From Deltaproteobacteria bacterium (GTDB lineage: Bacteria; Desulfobacterota; Syntrophia; Syntrophales; Smithellaceae): a stretch of 11,796 nt of DNA. Position 1 is the first letter of the stretch. Each line of letters opens with the position of its first letter. The translations under genes and the position numbers were made by a program. Shown piece after piece: positions 763-11,700 of this stretch. Location of the stretch: contig JAGFXG010000028.1 in NCBI GenBank assembly GCA_017860985.1, forward strand, positions 1 through 11,796, in the 5' to 3' direction. The notes under the pieces are model-generated. The model had not been told where the DNA came from and did no database searches. It saw nothing but the letters and a program-made list of their open reading frames with translations.

Positions 763-1314
763 ATGAGAATTTCCGGAGGTGAAGCAAAAGGAAGAACACT
801 GAAGTTTCCTTCCCGCTCAACACAAAGACCGACAACGGATTTTTTGCGGGAAACACTTTTCAACATACTCGGATCACCGGCGGATCAAACTTTTCTGGAC
901 TTGTACGCCGGTTCAGGTTCAGTTGGACTGGAGGCAGCGAGCCGTAAAGCAAAAAAAGTTGTTTTTGTTGAAAAAAACAGGGACCTGATCGGGACGATCC
1001 GGGAGAATGTTTCATTGTGTGGTTATGCGGATCGATGCCTGATCATCCATGCTGATATCCAAACGGCCCTGCGGGATCTTTACAGACAGAAAAGCGGTTT
1101 TGATGTGGTTTTTGCCGATCCTCCCTATAACAGGGGATTTATCGCAGAAACACTTCGTTCGCTTACGAAATATCCTGTCTTTGGGGAAAACGGTTTTGTT
1201 GTGCTGCAGCATTCCATAAAAGAACAACTGGCCTTTTCCACGGAATGGTTCATAACGGATCAGAGGAAGTATGGGGATAATTTATTAACTTTGCTAAGGA
1301 TGGGCAGTGCATGA
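763..1314 (+). CDS. rsmD: 16S rRNA (guanine(966)-N(2))-methyltransferase RsmD
   Basis: Cytoplasmic SAM-dependent methyltransferase that makes m2G966 in 16S rRNA, acting on assembling 30S subunits. At 183 residues it has the usual family length. Seen in order: the N-terminal MRISGGEAKGRTLKFP; the RPTTDFLRETLFNIL segment (22-36) typical of RsmD; SAM-binding motif I LDLYAGSG (45-52); an acidic motif II residue in VFVEKN (67-72); and the catalytic DPPY (119-122) of N2-guanine/N6-adenine methyltransferases. The ATG at 763 is chosen because it gives the canonical N-terminus. Its ribosome-binding site is weak (a GAG about 5 nt upstream), so it may depend on translation of pssA 32 nt upstream. Its stop overlaps the coaD start in an ATGA (1311-1314), so the two are translationally coupled. 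The rsmD-coaD pair is widespread in bacteria. Confidence 0.95.
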   Translation: MRISGGEAKGRTLKFPSRSTQRPTTDFLRETLFNILGSPADQTFLDLYAGSGSVGLEAASRKAKKVVFVEKNRDLIGTIRENVSLCGYADRCLIIHADIQTALRDLYRQKSGFDVVFADPPYNRGFIAETLRSLTKYPVFGENGFVVLQHSIKEQLAFSTEWFITDQRKYGDNLLTLLRMGSA

Positions 1315-1826
1315 ACACAGAAAAATTCGAAAATAAGGTTGCAATCTATCCGGGTTCGTTTGATCCGATTACAAACGGTCATGTGGATATCATAAAAAGA
1401 GGCAGCAGAATCTTTGATGAAATCATTGTGCTTGTCGCTAATAATTTTAGCAAGACGGCCCTGTTTACGGTAGAGGAACGCTGTCAGTTTATCCGGGAAG
1501 TTTTTCAGGATTATCCGGGGATTCGCGTTGACCGTCATGATGGTCTGTTGATTGATTACCTCAAGAGCTCAGGAGCCAGCACTATTTTGCGTGGCATGCG
1601 CGCTCTTTCCGATTTTGAATATGAATTCCAGATGGCGCTTATGAACAGGCGTCAGACAAAAAAAGTTGAAACTGTTTTTCTTATGAGTGGTTTTAGATGG
1701 TTTTATACCAGTTCCAAGCTGATCAAGGAGGTGGCCAGCCTGGGGGGCTCGGTCAGGGGGCTGGTTCCGGAAAATGTTCATCAGAAATTATTAGAAAAAT
1801 ACAACGTGAATACTAACGGGAGGTAG
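1311..1826 (+). CDS. coaD: Phosphopantetheine adenylyltransferase (PPAT)
   Basis: Catalyses the penultimate step of coenzyme A synthesis, transferring AMP from ATP to 4'-phosphopantetheine to give dephospho-CoA, in the cytoplasm. The 171 residues are slightly longer than the usual 160 or so because of a short N-terminal extension and a polar C-terminal tail. Visible landmarks are YPGSFDPITNGH (13-24), which contains the nucleotidyltransferase TxGH motif (21-24); a Lys at 48 in the substrate loop; ILRGMRALSDFEYE (92-105) with the conserved Arg pair and pantetheine-binding segment; and TSSKLIKEVA (133-142), the ATP-phosphate-binding SSxxxKE motif. The start overlaps the rsmD stop (ATGA), with AAGGA about 10 nt upstream. 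The next gene begins 4 nt after the stop, so all three are probably one operon. No inactivating change is visible. Confidence 0.95.
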   Translation: MNTEKFENKVAIYPGSFDPITNGHVDIIKRGSRIFDEIIVLVANNFSKTALFTVEERCQFIREVFQDYPGIRVDRHDGLLIDYLKSSGASTILRGMRALSDFEYEFQMALMNRRQTKKVETVFLMSGFRWFYTSSKLIKEVASLGGSVRGLVPENVHQKLLEKYNVNTNGR

Positions 1827-1830
1827 GTCT

Positions 1831-3024
1831 GTGAAACTGGCAGGTAGAGTAGCAAAAGTGAAACCATCGGAGACACTGGCCATAACGGCAAAGGCCAATG
1901 CCCTGAGGGCAGAGGGAAGAGACGTCATCGGTTTCGGTGCCGGGGAACCGGACTTTGACACACCGGATCACATCAAGAAAGCGGCCATAAAAGCCATAGA
2001 GGCCGGTTTTACAAAATATACGCCGGTTGGCGGAACGGATGAATTGAAAGACGCGATTATTCAGAAACTGGCGGTTGATAATCATCTGGAATACAATCGT
2101 TCGCAGATCGTCGTTTCCTGCGGCGCCAAACACACATTGTACAATCTGGCCCAGGTGCTCATTGAAGAAGGGGATGAGGTTATTATTCCTGCCCCTTACT
2201 GGGTTTCGTATCCTGATATTGTTGTTCTTGCCGGAGGGTCGCCGGTTATCGTCAATACCCTGGAAAAAGATGGTTTCAAGATGCTTCCCCAACAATTAAA
2301 GGCTGCAATGACCGGACGCACCAAAGCAGTTGTTCTGAACGGTCCATCCAATCCGACGGGAGCCGGTTATTCACCGGACGACCTCAAAGCACTAGCGGCT
2401 GTTCTGGCGGATACAGAGATTTTCATCATATCAGACGATATTTATGAAAAAATCCTTTATACGGAGTATCCGTTTACGAACATTGCGACTGCTGATGAGC
2501 GGTTGAAAGACAGGACCATTGTGGTGAACGGTGTTTCCAAGGCCTATGCCATGACCGGCTGGCGCATAGGTTATGCGGCGGGTCCGCAGGAAATAATCGG
2601 GGCCATGGGGAAAATTCAGGGTCAGAGCACATCTAATCCGACGTCTATTTCTCAAAAAGCATCCGTGGCGGCTCTCAACGGCGATCAAAGCGTTGTTGAA
2701 ATGATGGTTCGGGAATTTAAGAAGAGAAGAGATTATATCGTGGGAGCGCTCAATGACATTCCGGGCGTATCCTGTCTCATGCCTGAAGGCGCATTTTATG
2801 TGTTTCCCAATGTTTCCGCAACGTACGGCAGTTCTCTTTCAGGCAGAAAAATAACAAGTTCAACCGATTTTATTGAATATCTACTCGACGAAGCGAATGT
2901 GGCCACGGTGCCGGGAGCGGCTTTCGGAAATGATCATCATATCCGTTTGTCTTACGCCACTTCAATGAAGAATATTGAGGAAGGCGTCAAGAGAATTAAA
3001 AACGCAGTTGCAAAGCTTGCTTAA
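1831..3024 (+). CDS. PLP-dependent class I aminotransferase, probable aspartate aminotransferase
   Basis: Cytoplasmic pyridoxal-phosphate transaminase of fold type I, most like the Igamma/Ib aspartate aminotransferases (AspC/AspB of thermophiles, bacilli and Deltaproteobacteria), interconverting aspartate and oxaloacetate with 2-oxoglutarate/glutamate. The 397 residues match the family. Seen: GAGEPDFDTP (36-45); SNPTG (173-177) with the conserved Asn; SDDIYE (201-206), whose first Asp contacts the PLP ring nitrogen and whose Tyr is the O3' ligand; the Schiff-base Lys237 in GVSKAYAMTGWRIGY (234-248); and the substrate-carboxylate Arg372 in HIRLSYATS. The GTG start at 1831 has a good GGGAGG Shine-Dalgarno at about 1818-1823, overlapping the coaD stop, so the two genes are coupled. 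Substrate preference cannot be read from sequence alone: aspartate/prephenate and other acceptors occur in this subgroup, so I leave the symbol empty. The PurF-like gene follows after 23 nt. Confidence 0.92.
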   Translation: MKLAGRVAKVKPSETLAITAKANALRAEGRDVIGFGAGEPDFDTPDHIKKAAIKAIEAGFTKYTPVGGTDELKDAIIQKLAVDNHLEYNRSQIVVSCGAKHTLYNLAQVLIEEGDEVIIPAPYWVSYPDIVVLAGGSPVIVNTLEKDGFKMLPQQLKAAMTGRTKAVVLNGPSNPTGAGYSPDDLKALAAVLADTEIFIISDDIYEKILYTEYPFTNIATADERLKDRTIVVNGVSKAYAMTGWRIGYAAGPQEIIGAMGKIQGQSTSNPTSISQKASVAALNGDQSVVEMMVREFKKRRDYIVGALNDIPGVSCLMPEGAFYVFPNVSATYGSSLSGRKITSSTDFIEYLLDEANVATVPGAAFGNDHHIRLSYATSMKNIEEGVKRIKNAVAKLA

Positions 3025-3047
3025 AAAGCCGTGGAAGGAAGGAAGAA

Positions 3048-4451
3048 ATGGGAGGTCTTTTCGGTGTAATCACACAGGACAGCTGTGTTCAGACGCTATT
3101 TTACGGAACGGATTATCATTCACACCTTGGAACCGAGCACGGCGGCATGGCGGTGTTTGGTCCTAAAGGATTTTATAACACAATTCACGGGATATCACAG
3201 GCGCAGTTCAAGTCGCGGTTTGTCGATGATTACAGAAAAATGGAAGGGTACGCAGGAATAGGCGCCATTGATGACGAATCACCGCAGCCGCTGATTTTTC
3301 GTTCCAAATTCGGTATTTATGCAGTGGTCGCCACGGGGTTGATCACCAATAAGAATGAACTGGTAGGCGAGCTGCTCAATGAAGGTGCCTCCTTTACGGA
3401 GATGGCCGGAGGAGGTGTCAATAACGCGGAAATTGTCGCCTCCCTGATTAACCGGGGAGATAATATCGTCGAAGGCATCGCTTCCATGCGCGGCATCATT
3501 GAAGGATCTATCTGTGTTCTTGTGCTCACACCCGAGGGTATTTACGCCGCCCGGGACAAGGTTGGGCGTTTTCCCCTTGCACTGGGCCATAGCAAGGATG
3601 TGAACAAAAAGTCCTATGTCGTTGCCACCGAAGCAAGCTCTTTTGAGAATCTTGGTTATGAGTTGCAACGGTTCGTGGGACCGGGTGAAATTGTGCTGCT
3701 TTCTTCCGATGGAATCAGGCAGCTCAAGCCCGAAGGAAGTCAGAAAAAAATCTGTTCATTTTTATGGATATACACAGGTTCCCCTTCATCCAGCTACGAC
3801 GGCATCAGCGTGGAGCGAACCCGGGAACGGTGCGGCAGCTATTTAGCCAAGCGGGATAACGTCGAGGCCGATTTTGTCGCCGGGGTTCCCGATTCCGGCG
3901 TCGGTCACGCCATCGGCTACGCGATGGAATCCGGCATTCCGTACCGGAGACCCCTGGTGAAGTACACGCCCGGTTATGGACGAAGTTACACACCTCCCAC
4001 GCAGGAAATTCGTGATTTGATAGCGACCATGAAGCTCAGCGCGGTAAGGGAGGTCATCAACGGCAACCGGATGATTATTTGCGACGACTCGATTGTTCGG
4101 GGCACACAATTAAAAAACCTGACCGTGAAAAAATTGTGGGACAATGGCGCAAAGGAAATTCACATTCGCCCCGCTTGTCCTCCCCTGATGTTTCCCTGTA
4201 TCTATGCGTCTTCAACCAGAACCACTGCTGAACTGGCCTGCCACAAAGCGATGCGAGCCCTGGAAGGGAAAGGTGTTGAGAATCCGTCAGAGTATCTCGA
4301 TACAGCATCATCAAAGCACGCGAAAATGATTGATTGGATCAGGCGTGATTTAAATGTGACATCCCTGAAATACATGACCATAGAAGATATGATTGCGGCT
4401 ATCGGTCTGCCTGAGCAACAGCTTTGTCTGCATTGCTGGCTGGGAAAATAG
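3048..4451 (+). CDS. PurF-like amidophosphoribosyltransferase homologue lacking the glutaminase active site
   Basis: Homologue of PurF, which makes 5-phosphoribosylamine from PRPP and glutamine in purine synthesis. The 467 residues have the PurF architecture: Ntn glutaminase-like domain (about 1-225) then phosphoribosyltransferase domain (about 235-467). The PRT half is well kept: the GRSYTPPTQEIR flexible loop (311-322), MKLSAVR (328-334) and the PRPP loop DDSIVRGT (346-353). Cysteines at 236, 384, 460 and 463 (KKICSF, FPCIY, CLHC) match the four 4Fe-4S ligands of Bacillus-type PurF. The glutaminase half is not kept: the protein starts MGGLFGV where PurF has Met-Cys-Gly; the Arg-Tyr motif is gone (GIGAIDDESPQPL, 71-82); the His-Asn-Gly-Asn oxyanion motif reads Ala-Thr-Gly-Leu (95-98); and Asp of the SD(T/S)E motif is Asn126. 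No propeptide precedes it. The start is supported by AGGAAGG-type Shine-Dalgarno sequence at 3035-3044. It is last in its operon, before a strong terminator. It may use ammonia or another amine donor, or may have a non-purine role; the sequence does not decide. I recall similar Cys-less proteins labelled PurF in other anaerobes, unverified. Confidence 0.85.
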   Translation: MGGLFGVITQDSCVQTLFYGTDYHSHLGTEHGGMAVFGPKGFYNTIHGISQAQFKSRFVDDYRKMEGYAGIGAIDDESPQPLIFRSKFGIYAVVATGLITNKNELVGELLNEGASFTEMAGGGVNNAEIVASLINRGDNIVEGIASMRGIIEGSICVLVLTPEGIYAARDKVGRFPLALGHSKDVNKKSYVVATEASSFENLGYELQRFVGPGEIVLLSSDGIRQLKPEGSQKKICSFLWIYTGSPSSSYDGISVERTRERCGSYLAKRDNVEADFVAGVPDSGVGHAIGYAMESGIPYRRPLVKYTPGYGRSYTPPTQEIRDLIATMKLSAVREVINGNRMIICDDSIVRGTQLKNLTVKKLWDNGAKEIHIRPACPPLMFPCIYASSTRTTAELACHKAMRALEGKGVENPSEYLDTASSKHAKMIDWIRRDLNVTSLKYMTIEDMIAAIGLPEQQLCLHCWLGK

Positions 4452-4481
4452 AATAGGAAAACCCGGTTTCGTATCAAGCAC

Positions 4482-4547
4482 AAAAGCGGCTGTCGACGGT
4501 GACGTTCATAACGGACCATCAGCGACTGCCGCTTTTTTGATTTTTTT
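4482..4547 (+). terminator. Strong intrinsic terminator after the purF-like gene
   Basis: The perfect 9-bp stem AAAAGCGGC (4482-4490) / GCCGCTTTT (4528-4536) is extended, after a T-T mismatch, by GTCG (4492-4495) / CGAC (4523-4526), and after a 2x2 internal loop by GGTG (4498-4501) / CACC-like pairing at 4517-4520 that includes one G-T wobble. It ends in T runs (4533-4538 and 4541-4547). The A-rich 5' arm would also allow some function in the opposite direction. It begins 31 nt after the purF-like stop and separates that operon from ispG. Confidence 0.88.
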
Positions 4548-4580
4548 CAGAACCAGTACCACAGGGATCTAAATTTGCCA

Positions 4581-4609
4581 TTGCCCGGGACGTTTACAAA
4601 TGTTATAAA
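4581..4609 (+). promoter_or_regulatory. Putative sigma-70-type promoter for ispG-proS-rel
   Basis: TTGCCC (4581-4586), 17 nt spacer, TATAAA (4604-4609). The -35 matches consensus at 4 of 6 positions and the -10 at 5 of 6. Transcription would begin near 4616, giving a leader of about 21 nt that carries a GAGAG Shine-Dalgarno (4625-4629) ahead of the ispG ATG. It lies in the only sizeable gap in this half of the window (4452-4636, 185 nt), directly after the terminator. Two copies of TAAATTTGC flank it (4570-4578 and 4606-4614). Confidence 0.6.
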
Positions 4610-4636
4610 TTTGCAAAGGATAAAGAGAGAAAGCCT

Positions 4637-5716
4637 ATGCCCGTGAAGCAGGTTTTAAAAAAAAGACGAAAAGCAAGAGTCATTCATGTCGGATCAGTCA
4701 AAATCGGAGGGGATGCGCCCATTATTATTCAATCCATGACCAATACGGATACCCGTGATGTTGAAGCAACGGTCAGGCAGATTCATGAATTACAGGAAGC
4801 AGGATGTGAAATAGTAAGAGTAGCTGTTCCGGACAAGCAGGCCGTCGATGCGATACCGGCCATTAAAAGACGCATTAAAATACCATTGATTGCCGATATT
4901 CATTTTCATTATCAATATGCACTTGATGCCATAAAATATGGTGCGGACGGCATTCGGATCAATCCCGGCAATATTGCCAAAGACAAGATCGTTCAAATTG
5001 TCCGGGCAGCCAAAGAACACAGGACGGTCATTCGCATCGGTGTCAATGCCGGATCTCTGCAGAAGGATCTGGTTGCAGAATATGGCGGAGTTACCGCGGA
5101 AGCTATGTATACCAGCGCTTTGCGGAATATCGAAATATTTGAGGACTTGGGGTTTGAATCCATCAAGCTTTCTCTCAAGTCATCCGATGTGCCGATGATG
5201 ATTGAGGCCTACCGGATGATAGCCGCCAAAACGGATTATCCCCTGCACCTGGGCGTCACGGAAGCGGGAACGCTCGTTGATGCGGCCATCAAATCAGCCC
5301 TGGGCATCGGCACGCTCCTGTATGAAGGCATCGGCGATACCATTCGCGTTTCGGTAACCGGAAATCCGGTGCTGGAAATCCCCGTTGCATACAGTATTTT
5401 GCGGGCATTGAAGATTCGTAAAATCGGTCCAGAAATCATTGCCTGTCCCACCTGCGGACGATGTCAGATCGATCTTACGGGGTTGGCGGAAACCATCGAA
5501 AAAGCGCTGGCCGGAAGAAAAAAATATATCAAGGTGGCGCTGATGGGATGTGTGGTTAACGGTCCCGGTGAAGCCGCGGATGCGGATATCGGGATTGCAG
5601 GAGGCCGTGGATTCGGTATGATGTTTAAAAAAGGCGTTGCCTACAAAAAAGTGGAAGAAGAGGATTTTGTCCAGGTGTTGCTTGAAGAGATAAAATCCCT
5701 GGATAATGAAAAATAA
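4637..5716 (+). CDS. ispG: 4-hydroxy-3-methylbut-2-en-1-yl diphosphate synthase
   Basis: Iron-sulfur enzyme of the MEP pathway that reductively converts MEcPP to HMBPP using ferredoxin or flavodoxin electrons; it shows that this organism makes isoprenoids by the non-mevalonate route. The 359 residues match the short bacterial (two-domain) form. The N-terminal TIM-barrel domain includes IQSMTNTDT (31-39) and DGIRINPGNI (104-113). The C-terminal domain has 4Fe-4S ligands Cys270 and Cys273 (CPTCGRC, 270-276) and Cys305, with catalytic Glu312 in GCVVNGPGE (304-312); the cysteine numbers equal those of E. coli IspG. It is first in its operon, about 28 nt downstream of the promoter -10. The proS Shine-Dalgarno overlaps its stop codon. 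In many proteobacteria ispG and proS lie next to dxr and rseP, which are absent here. An A8 run at 4657-4664 lies in codons 7-10. Confidence 0.97.
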   Translation: MPVKQVLKKRRKARVIHVGSVKIGGDAPIIIQSMTNTDTRDVEATVRQIHELQEAGCEIVRVAVPDKQAVDAIPAIKRRIKIPLIADIHFHYQYALDAIKYGADGIRINPGNIAKDKIVQIVRAAKEHRTVIRIGVNAGSLQKDLVAEYGGVTAEAMYTSALRNIEIFEDLGFESIKLSLKSSDVPMMIEAYRMIAAKTDYPLHLGVTEAGTLVDAAIKSALGIGTLLYEGIGDTIRVSVTGNPVLEIPVAYSILRALKIRKIGPEIIACPTCGRCQIDLTGLAETIEKALAGRKKYIKVALMGCVVNGPGEAADADIGIAGGRGFGMMFKKGVAYKKVEEEDFVQVLLEEIKSLDNEK

Positions 5717-7479: not shown

Positions 7480-9501
7480 ATGCTAAGAATCAATGACATT
7501 CTTGATAAAGCACAAGCCTATCTGACGGCTGAAGAGCTGGAAATGATCCAGAAGGCTTATATTTACTCGGCTACGGTGCATCAGGGACAGGTTCGTTTAT
7601 CCGGTGAACCTTATCTTACGCATCCCATGGAAGTGGCCGGTATCCTGGTCGACATGAAGCTGGATTCAGCGACGATCATCAGCGGACTTCTGCATGACAC
7701 CATTGAGGATACACTGACCACGAAGGAACAAATTGAAAGAGAATTCGGCAAAGATGTTTCTTTTCTGGTCAGCGGGCTTACCAAACTGAGCCGTATTTCA
7801 TTCGGATCCCAGGAAGAAAGGCAGGCGGAAAATTTCCGCAAAATGATTCTGGCGATGTCATCGGATATCCGTATCCTGATGGTTCGGCTGGCTGACCGTA
7901 TTCATAACATGAGGACTCTTCAGTATCAGAAGCCGGACAGACGGGTATATATCGCACGGGAGACAATGGATGTCTATGCGCCGCTGGCCAACCGTTTGGG
8001 AATCAACTGGATGAAGATGGAGCTGGAAGACATGGCGTTTCAGTATCTTTCGCCGGATGCCTACAATGAAATTAAGAGCAGGGTGGCCAAATCCTATGAA
8101 TCAAGAAACCTCTACACGGAAGAAGTAAAAAACATCATCTTTCAAGAGCTGGTCAAAGTATCGATTCAGGGTGAAGTCGAGGGAAGGGCAAAGCATCTGT
8201 ACGGCATTTACAGAAAAATGCATGAACAGCATATCGACTTCGATGAAGTTTATGATGTCATCGCGTTCCGCATTATCCTCGATTCGGAAAAAGAAAAAAC
8301 ATGCTACGAAGCACTGAGCATCGTTCATGCCTTATGGAAGCCTGTTCCCGGCCGTTTTAAAGATTACATTGCCATGCCCAAGGCCAATAACTATCAATCC
8401 CTGCACACGGCAGTGATCGGTCCGCATGGGGAAAGAGTAGAAATTCAGATCAGGACGAGGGCCATGCATGAATGGGCGGAAAAAGGGATTGCCGCCCACT
8501 GGCGCTATAAGGAAGGACGGGCATTTCAGGATGATGAAGATTCGCAGATTAAAAAACTTCGCGAAGCGCTGGAAGTACAGAAGGATATCAAGAATCCAAA
8601 AGAGTTCATGTCCAATCTGAAAATGGCGCTGTTTCCGGAGGATGTGTATGTTTTTACGCCCCATGGTGATGTTAAGACATTTCCCAGGGGGGCTACGCCC
8701 ATCGATTTTGCCTACAGCATTCATACCGATGTCGGAAATCAGTGTATCGGCGCGAAAGTAAACCGCAATATCGTGCCGCTGCGTTATCACCTGCAAAATG
8801 GCGATCAGATTGAAATTATCACCCAGGCCGGGCATCATCCCAGCAAAGACTGGCTGAAATACGTGGTAACCTCCCGTGCCATCTCCAAGATCCGTAACTG
8901 GATCAATCTGGAAGAAAAAAACAGTTCTCAGACGCTGGGCAGAGATTTGCTGGACAAAGAATTTAAGAGAAACAACCTGAAATTTTCGACTTGTGTCAAA
9001 TCGGACGAAATGAAGAAAATCCTCGTGGAGCATTCGCTACCAACGGTGGAAGATTTGATATCACAGGTGGGTTATGGCCGGATTTCACCCAGGCAGATAG
9101 TCAATTCCTTTCTTGTCACAGCTGAAGCGCCCAAAGGAAGTGAAAAACTTCCGGAGAAAACAAGAAAAAAAGCTGCCGCTCCTTCACTGGGAATCAGTCT
9201 CACCGGTATTGATGACGTTATGGTCAAATTTGCGATCAACTGGGATCTTCGCCAGAAGCATGCTTATCCCGTGCATATTAAGGTTGTCTGCAATGACCGC
9301 AAGGGCGTTTTAACAGAGGTCAGCTCCGTGATCACCTCGTTTGACATCAATATCAGCTTTGCCCAGGTGGAGACAACGGACATGATTGCCAATTGCATGT
9401 TTATCATTGACGTTAATGATCTGCAGCAGCTGAATTCCATTTTTTCCGCCATTCGCCAGTTGAAAGTTGTTCGATCCATTGAAAGGATTCGCAAAGCTTA
9501 A
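7480..9501 (+). CDS. Bifunctional (p)ppGpp synthetase/hydrolase, Rel/SpoT type, lacking the zinc-finger (CC/RIS) module
   Basis: Stringent-response enzyme that makes and degrades (p)ppGpp. Domains in order: HD hydrolase (about 25-160) with His48, His72-Asp73, Glu76-Asp77 and ADRIHNM (138-144), all consistent with an active hydrolase; synthetase (about 235-350) with RFKD (292-295), the RxKD charge motif of bifunctional Rel/SpoT rather than RelA ExDD, then YQSLHT (305-310) and VEIQIRT (320-326); TGS (about 386-450) with the tRNA-contacting His in YSIHTD (412-417); a helical region (about 455-565); and C-terminal ACT (about 596-673). The 673 residues fall short of the usual 700-740. After DDVMVKFA (578-585), where the family continues with a Cys-Cys zinc-finger/RIS segment, the sequence goes straight to INWD and the ACT domain, so about 45-55 residues are absent in frame. 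The Shine-Dalgarno is weak (GGGA, 7470-7473). It is the third gene after ispG and proS. Either rel or spoT could serve as the name. Confidence 0.95.
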   Translation: MLRINDILDKAQAYLTAEELEMIQKAYIYSATVHQGQVRLSGEPYLTHPMEVAGILVDMKLDSATIISGLLHDTIEDTLTTKEQIEREFGKDVSFLVSGLTKLSRISFGSQEERQAENFRKMILAMSSDIRILMVRLADRIHNMRTLQYQKPDRRVYIARETMDVYAPLANRLGINWMKMELEDMAFQYLSPDAYNEIKSRVAKSYESRNLYTEEVKNIIFQELVKVSIQGEVEGRAKHLYGIYRKMHEQHIDFDEVYDVIAFRIILDSEKEKTCYEALSIVHALWKPVPGRFKDYIAMPKANNYQSLHTAVIGPHGERVEIQIRTRAMHEWAEKGIAAHWRYKEGRAFQDDEDSQIKKLREALEVQKDIKNPKEFMSNLKMALFPEDVYVFTPHGDVKTFPRGATPIDFAYSIHTDVGNQCIGAKVNRNIVPLRYHLQNGDQIEIITQAGHHPSKDWLKYVVTSRAISKIRNWINLEEKNSSQTLGRDLLDKEFKRNNLKFSTCVKSDEMKKILVEHSLPTVEDLISQVGYGRISPRQIVNSFLVTAEAPKGSEKLPEKTRKKAAAPSLGISLTGIDDVMVKFAINWDLRQKHAYPVHIKVVCNDRKGVLTEVSSVITSFDINISFAQVETTDMIANCMFIIDVNDLQQLNSIFSAIRQLKVVRSIERIRKA

Positions 9502-11623: not shown

Positions 11624-11700
11624 CGGGGCGTAGCGCAGCTTGGTAGCGCGCTTGCTTTGGGAGCAAGATGTCGCAGGTTCAAATCCTGCCGCCCCGACCA
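11624..11700 (+). tRNA. tRNA-Pro, anticodon UGG
   Basis: A 77-nt cloverleaf with CCA encoded. Acceptor stem CGGGGCG (11624-11630) pairs perfectly with CGCCCCG (11690-11696); discriminator A at 11697, CCA at 11698-11700. D arm GCGC/GCGC with the GG of the loop; anticodon stem CTTGC/GCAAG around loop TTTGGGA, so the anticodon is TGG (11658-11660). T arm GCAGG/CCTGC around TTCAAAT. The C1-G72 pair is the identity feature of bacterial tRNA-Pro recognised by ProRS. UGG can read CCA and CCG, and all four proline codons if modified. It starts 6 nt after the rdgB stop, with no recognisable promoter of its own, so it needs cutting out of a longer RNA. Confidence 0.98.

Follow-up and report, generated by a model that had tools for sequence, protein, structure and literature searches.

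A PurF paralog without the glutaminase nucleophile

The gene described here lies in a stretch of 11,796 nucleotides, hereafter the window (positions 1-11,796 of contig JAGFXG010000028.1, assembly GCA_017860985.1), from a Deltaproteobacteria bacterium of the Smithellaceae (Syntrophales). On the forward strand, which also carries the parts of the gene and the neighbors rsmD, coaD, the transaminase-like gene, and ispG described below, an ATG-initiated reading frame without frameshift (3048..4451) encodes a 467 aa paralog of PurF, the amidophosphoribosyltransferase, that lacks the N-terminal cysteine (PurF2, MGG type). The ATG is preceded by a purine-rich, Shine-Dalgarno-like run (GGAAGGAAGG, 3033..3045), recognized from the upstream 30 bases of 18 orthologs. 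Upstream of the ATG the frame stays open for 16 codons, two of them Cys codons, and contains no in-frame ATG, GTG, or TTG. Because there is no upstream start and the GGAAGGAAGG run stands before the ATG, it is very likely that Gly2 is genuine.

The protein was aligned with PurFs of the same order and with B. subtilis PurF. Its former glutaminase (N-terminal nucleophile, Ntn) domain, residues 1-230 (3048..3737), still matches glutaminase domains in fold, and its catalytic and glutamine-binding residues are replaced. Gly2 (3051..3053) stands in place of the Cys nucleophile; in the structural comparison with 1ao0_A, the first aligned residues are residue 2 of the model and residue 1 of the chain. 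The eight-residue Arg-Tyr glutamine loop of PurF (RYSTTGSS) is deleted after Ile74 (3267..3269), and HNGN reads ATGL at residues 95-98. These three losses had been noticed in the first-pass annotation, made from the DNA sequence, and all of them hold in the alignment. The same annotation equated the conserved Asp with Asn126; the Asp region is indeed changed, but the exact pairing depends on the alignment because five residues are inserted there (122-126). Three further changes had escaped it: HRGQ has become HLGT at residues 26-29, so that the Arg is gone too, the mobile loop over the phosphoribosyl pyrophosphate (PRPP) site is one residue longer, and RGTT has become RGTQ.

The PRPP site and the iron-sulfur (Fe-S) ligands are intact, as the first-pass annotation had stated. 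MKLSAVR is found at residues 328-334 and DDSIVRGT at 346-353, the latter within the PRPP loop DDSIVRGTQ (346-354; 4083..4109), of which D347 to Q354 are kept in 324 of 324 Cys-less homologs. The four Fe-S-type cysteines, assigned by alignment as Cys236 (3753..3755), Cys384 (4197..4199), and Cys460 with Cys463 (4425..4436), are invariant in these 324 homologs as well as in all 93 aligned proteins of a smaller set that includes three true PurFs. The mobile loop (residues 305-322; 3960..4013) carries the family-specific KYTP...RS pattern, KYTPGYGRSY in the window protein versus RNHYIGRTF in PurF. Altogether, the protein has the PurF fold and the DDSIVRGT loop, and it lacks other defining features of PurF, namely the N-terminal Cys, the Arg-Tyr loop, HNGN, and a TIGR01134 (purF, NCBIfam) score above the equivalog cut-off (222.2 bits, cut-off 350). 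A Pfam scan of the 467 aa returned GATase_7 alone, at 36.7 bits.

The pattern is shared by the homologs gathered. The 324 Cys-less homologs, near-copies included, were gathered by similarity to Cys-less queries and comprise 232 database proteins (restricted to rows of 455-480 aa that begin with M), sequences from 79 of 80 loci, and a further 13 from the order. Among the 80 loci, 42 were initially selected with a pattern that admits only Gly, Ser, or Ala at residue 2; for 37 of the other 38, reading began at the match start with no condition on that residue, and the truncated L095 was excluded. Residue 2 is Gly in 296 homologs, Ser in 27, and missing in one; Cys occurs in 0 of 323. All 324 lack the Arg-Tyr loop and have another residue in place of the HNGN Asn; 323 have likewise exchanged the HRGQ Arg, the lone exception (P0105) also missing its N-terminus. 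What the first-pass annotation had postulated for a single sequence, several losses concentrated in one domain while the protein as a whole is maintained, thus extends to the family, at a ratio of nonsynonymous to synonymous substitutions (dN/dS) of about 0.05.

Specifically, the median dN/dS of the Cys-less family is 0.050 for residues 1-230 and 0.052 for residues 231-467 (43 of 153 pairs, those with dS < 1.5), compared with 0.037 and 0.054 for the same two domains of PurF (6 of 10 pairs, several with dS > 1). At a 97% threshold, the N-terminal domain has 43 near-invariant columns in the Cys-less family (45 rows) versus 44 in PurF (24 rows), and the C-terminal domain has 63 versus 42. In the N-terminal domain, 17 near-invariant residues of PurF have been lost and 17 family-specific ones gained, the latter including Y19, D22, Y23, S25, and T29 in the old HRGQ segment, H47, F58, D76, and R174. 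In the C-terminal domain, 13 have been lost and 20 gained, including K305, Y306, T307, P308, S313, and P316 of the mobile loop and Q354 after the PRPP loop. Because its dN/dS is as low as that of the catalytic domain and 17 near-invariant residues are specific to it, the former glutaminase domain is, to judge from these patterns, retooled rather than decayed, and the window gene is not damaged. With about as many near-invariant columns as PurF, 17 of them its own, this domain is kept for some purpose and seems to bind something.

Family distribution and the Cys-bearing sister

The window protein belongs to a large family and is not peculiar to its genome. The nearest proteins, among the 120 matches listed, are 77-96% identical; the source-named ones are annotated as amidophosphoribosyltransferase and come from Smithella, Smithellaceae, Syntrophaceae, Deltaproteobacteria, or a hydrocarbon metagenome. 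A search from a 47% identical relative of the order gave organism-named matches in Bacteroidales and other Bacteroidota and in two Syntrophales. Scanning one genome per species yielded at least 587 relatives, and the best 80 of these, by record title, represent Bacteroidota, Desulfobacterota, Hydrogenedentota, Lentisphaerales, Planctomycetota, Verrucomicrobia, Spirochaetes, and Ignavibacteria, many of them as metagenome-assembled genomes.

A quick maximum-likelihood tree was built from 70 rows; it is rooted by the long PurFs and carries a long-branch warning at that point. All 45 Cys-less rows form a single clade in it (support of 100 in the Shimodaira-Hasegawa-like approximate likelihood ratio test, SH-aLRT). 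Its sister is a clade of ten Cys-bearing rows (CYS2; SH-aLRT 99, and again 99 for the node joining the two clades); outside both lie eleven glutamine PurFs and the four long PurFs from Bacteroidota. Seven of the eight Ser2 rows fall into one clade centered on Bacteroidota (L108, L111, L113, L131, L149, and others), in which the Ser is a possible Ntn nucleophile and the glutamine-binding residues are gone.

Like the Cys-less family, the sister has lost the Arg-Tyr loop (120 of 120 proteins) and has a CDDSIVRGTQ-type PRPP loop. Unlike it, the sister keeps the Cys and the HRGQ Arg and Gln (120 of 120), reads FSGN for HNGN (Phe in 120 of 120, Ser in 119 of 120), and adjoins a second carB (carB2) in nine of the ten loci read with flanks (L037-L042, L064, L065, L067). 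As the sister keeps the Cys without the Arg-Tyr loop, the loop was probably lost before the nucleophile. Having the nucleophile and no glutamine loop, the sister may use an amide donor other than glutamine.

The two forms were counted in 109 genomes of the order (that of the window and 108 with at least 90% completeness), with assignment by score and identity. Among the matches listed (at least about 160 bits, a level at which small pieces may escape notice), the Cys-less form is present in 60 genomes (one as a fragment), the sister in 31, both in none, and neither in 18. Zero overlap would have a chance of 7e-15 for independent genomes, an assumption that does not hold here. MGG opens each of the 14 Cys-less rows newly read, as well as the earlier-read rows that reach the N-terminus. 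For the sister, the Cys was confirmed in 30 of 31 genomes; in the other (G110), the frame lacks its N-terminus. Families f11 and f16 each hold both kinds, in different genomes, and one form therefore seems to replace the other. No link of carB2 to either form emerged, since carB2 occurs, among the matches listed, in most genomes of the order, Cys-less carriers included.

Glutamine-type PurF in carriers

The genome of the window (67.6% complete) also encodes a Cys-bearing PurF, 35% identical to the Cys-less protein and located after carB and before adk (neighbor names assigned by eye). The Cys-less copy is not the only PurF of its genome, and no start codon lies upstream of it; on these two points, the findings that would have refuted the first-pass annotation did not arise. 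Fragmented copies included, a glutamine PurF is present in 47 of the 60 Cys-less, 25 of the 31 sister, and 17 of the 18 neither-form genomes. In other lineages, a PurF above the cut-off is present in 23 of 38 genomes (4 of 18 in one set and 19 of 20 in another). The other 15 include eleven Bacteroidota by record title, ten of them with long (628-651 aa) PurF-like rows; G133 has a similar but split row, its frame being shorter and close to the end of a contig. PurF pieces were found in G129 and G144, and no PurF in the genome searches of G128 and G132. The long PurF of Phocaeicola keeps the Cys, HNRGQ, and RYST, has CGNFN for HNGN, and lies between genes resembling glmS and carA. At 3228-5114 of locus L199, a long Bacteroidota PurF (628 aa) with CGNFN for HNGN, between glmS- and carA-like genes, scores under the purF cut-off.

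We also considered whether the Cys-less form serves as the sole PurF in the 13 of 60 carriers without a glutamine PurF, and rejected the idea, as the statistics are too weak to claim replacement. Four of these carriers (G012, G015, G041, G061) have a contig break within or just past the carB that precedes purF, and the absence there is therefore most likely an assembly effect. PurF is missing with purD present in 16 genomes versus 5 for the reverse (P 0.027), and in 12 versus 5 without the four contig-end genomes (P 0.14); it is missing in 19 of 91 genomes with either form of PurF2 versus 1 of 18 without (P 0.19).

Gene neighborhood

In the window, rsmD and coaD (763..1826) are followed by an aspartate-transaminase-like gene (1831..3024; best NCBIfam match aspartate transaminase, below cut-off), which ends 23 bases upstream of the paralog, and ispG (4637..5716) begins 185 bases downstream. 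In many relatives coaD is the direct upstream neighbor. Among 26 loci of the order (L008-L033), the transaminase gene lies between coaD and the paralog in 13, and coaD is directly upstream in a further 11, at 9-69 bases in those checked; L030 and L033 are unreadable. In most loci read in the order, the gene follows coaD, with or without the transaminase gene, and precedes ispG.

In other lineages, neighbors were named by eye, except for guaA and two carB. A carB-like gene is near at L098, L099, L101, L107, L112, L122, and L156, and guaA at L100, L106, and L110; in Bacteroidaceae and Tannerellaceae, genes resembling pepT and gcvT are often downstream. Neighbors could be read in 71 of the 80 loci, nine having no clean frame. 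Of 53 close same-strand neighbors, 43 were scanned and ten omitted as likely repeats (eight pepT-like, two from another cluster); no Pfam family recurred in more than three of the 43.

Two other features of the window may be mentioned. A RelA/SpoT-family gene lies at 7480-9501, three genes downstream of the paralog, and a structure of E. coli PurF with guanosine tetraphosphate (ppGpp) exists (6czf). A tRNA-Pro gene (TGG anticodon) is found at 11624-11700, and the same window contains a proline-tRNA ligase gene.

Interpretation

That the window protein works without glutamine and uses PRPP is likely from its residues, and the activity of the phosphoribosyltransferase (PRTase) half of PurF is a well-supported prediction. 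Our preferred reading goes further, and only tentatively, to the first of the three roles listed in the first-pass annotation (ammonia-dependent phosphoribosylamine synthase, enzyme using another amine, sensor): the protein would be a glutamine-independent PurF paralog, most likely an ammonia-dependent phosphoribosylamine synthase and the bacterial counterpart of crenarchaeal PurF'. The PRTase domain would bind PRPP and Mg as PurF does, given its invariant residues, and an amine would attack C1 of PRPP, releasing pyrophosphate. Free ammonia would be the most likely amine, since the N-terminal domain should be unable to bind or split glutamine, although we hold this assignment itself with some reserve. 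Use of ammonia is the simplest mechanism and has a precedent in mutated PurF. The phosphoribosylamine would serve purines and the cofactors derived from aminoimidazole ribonucleotide (AIR), alongside the glutamine-dependent PurF of the cell, much as AsnA stands beside AsnB.

Several observations weigh against this reading. A domain freed from glutamine should drift, yet its near-invariant columns are about as numerous as those of PurF, and 17 are its own. The mobile loop, which in PurF helps to form the ammonia channel, has been rebuilt. The window gene is not in a pur operon, its neighbors being rsmD, coaD, the transaminase gene, ispG, and proS. As most carriers have a further PurF or PurF-like protein, the need for a second route is unsupported, and 18 of the 109 genomes of the order, among the matches listed, have neither form.

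The retooled N-terminal domain and mobile loop leave room for an effector as well as for another amine, and some of these points suit a different acceptor. The phosphoribose of PRPP might be moved to another amine or nitrogen nucleophile, the retooled N-terminal pocket holding acceptor or donor. The 17 and 20 family-specific near-invariant residues of the two domains, several on the mobile loop, and Q354 are consistent with this, as is the fact that this genome and most other carriers also have a normal PurF; so is the sister, which looks as though the ligand of the pocket had already changed. However, no amine-pathway gene recurs among the neighbors scanned, and the fold and PRPP site are PurF-like throughout; we regard this alternative as possible but doubtful. 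A broader version of it, more speculative still, is that an ancient purF-annotated family, spread over at least Bacteroidota, Desulfobacterota, and several other phyla, has had its pocket rebuilt for a new amine donor or acceptor and yields an unrecognized N-phosphoribosyl metabolite, the mutually exclusive Cys-bearing sister doing the same job with a non-glutamine amide. It is unlikely that the protein is instead a regulator or pseudo-subunit, that is, a sensor of PRPP, nucleotides, or oxygen, or a mixed-tetramer partner of true PurF. The co-residence of glutamine PurF described above (at least four of the absences in the order being contig ends) and the kept Fe-S ligands would fit such a role, but the PRPP-handling residues are conserved across phyla beyond the needs of sensing, the family-specific changes sit on the catalytic loop, and the 467 aa contain no extra Pfam domain. 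That a wrong start or an assembly error disguises an ordinary glutamine PurF, as the database name of the relatives and the two Cys codons in the open stretch upstream might suggest, is highly improbable, since that stretch has no start codon and overlaps the Shine-Dalgarno-like run, none of 323 homologs has Cys at residue 2, the other glutamine residues are gone, and the TIGR01134 score is below cut-off.

Common among gut Bacteroidales and syntrophs, this family bears the name of the first purine enzyme, and its residues indicate that it cannot work as such. The database name of the Cys-less copies in many gut and sediment bacteria may mislead, and metabolic models or predictions of purine auxotrophy that count such a copy as PurF may be wrong. 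The family also appears to show how an amidotransferase domain can outlive its own chemistry and be retooled, with the Cys-bearing sister as a possible intermediate. In listings from an open-licence library, we found no title on a Cys-less PurF family in bacteria and, for Bacteroides mutants, nothing on the Cys-less gene.

Comparison with known systems

Among characterized proteins, PurF (EC 2.4.2.14, TIGR01134; 1ao0, 1gph, 1ecb) shares with the window protein the whole fold, the PRPP loop, and the B. subtilis-type Fe-S cysteines; unlike PurF, the window protein has no nucleophile, Arg-Tyr loop, or HNGN, its mobile loop is changed, and its 222 bits lie below the cut-off of 350. Beta-lactam synthetase and carbapenam synthetase (1jgt, 1q15), which contain an AsnB-type synthetase domain, differ from it in not being PRTases.

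A close parallel is found in Archaea. As far as the published description goes, the Crenarchaeota studied have both PurF and a Cys-less PurF', close together and near purine genes, and many PurF' carry Ala or Val at the Cys site (PMC3261824). PurF' resembles the window protein in being a second PurF in the genome without an N-terminal Cys. By the same description, PurF' differs in its Ala or Val and its proximity to pur genes, whereas the family described here is bacterial, has Gly or Ser, and its member in the window is not located by pur genes. E. coli PurF lacking Cys1 remains able to use ammonia, as cited in the same study, whose authors suggested in 2011 that PurF' performs ammonia-dependent synthesis, a suggestion they left to be tested (PMC3261824). 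For Crenarchaeota, a PurF that lacks the Cys and may depend on ammonia has therefore already been proposed in print.
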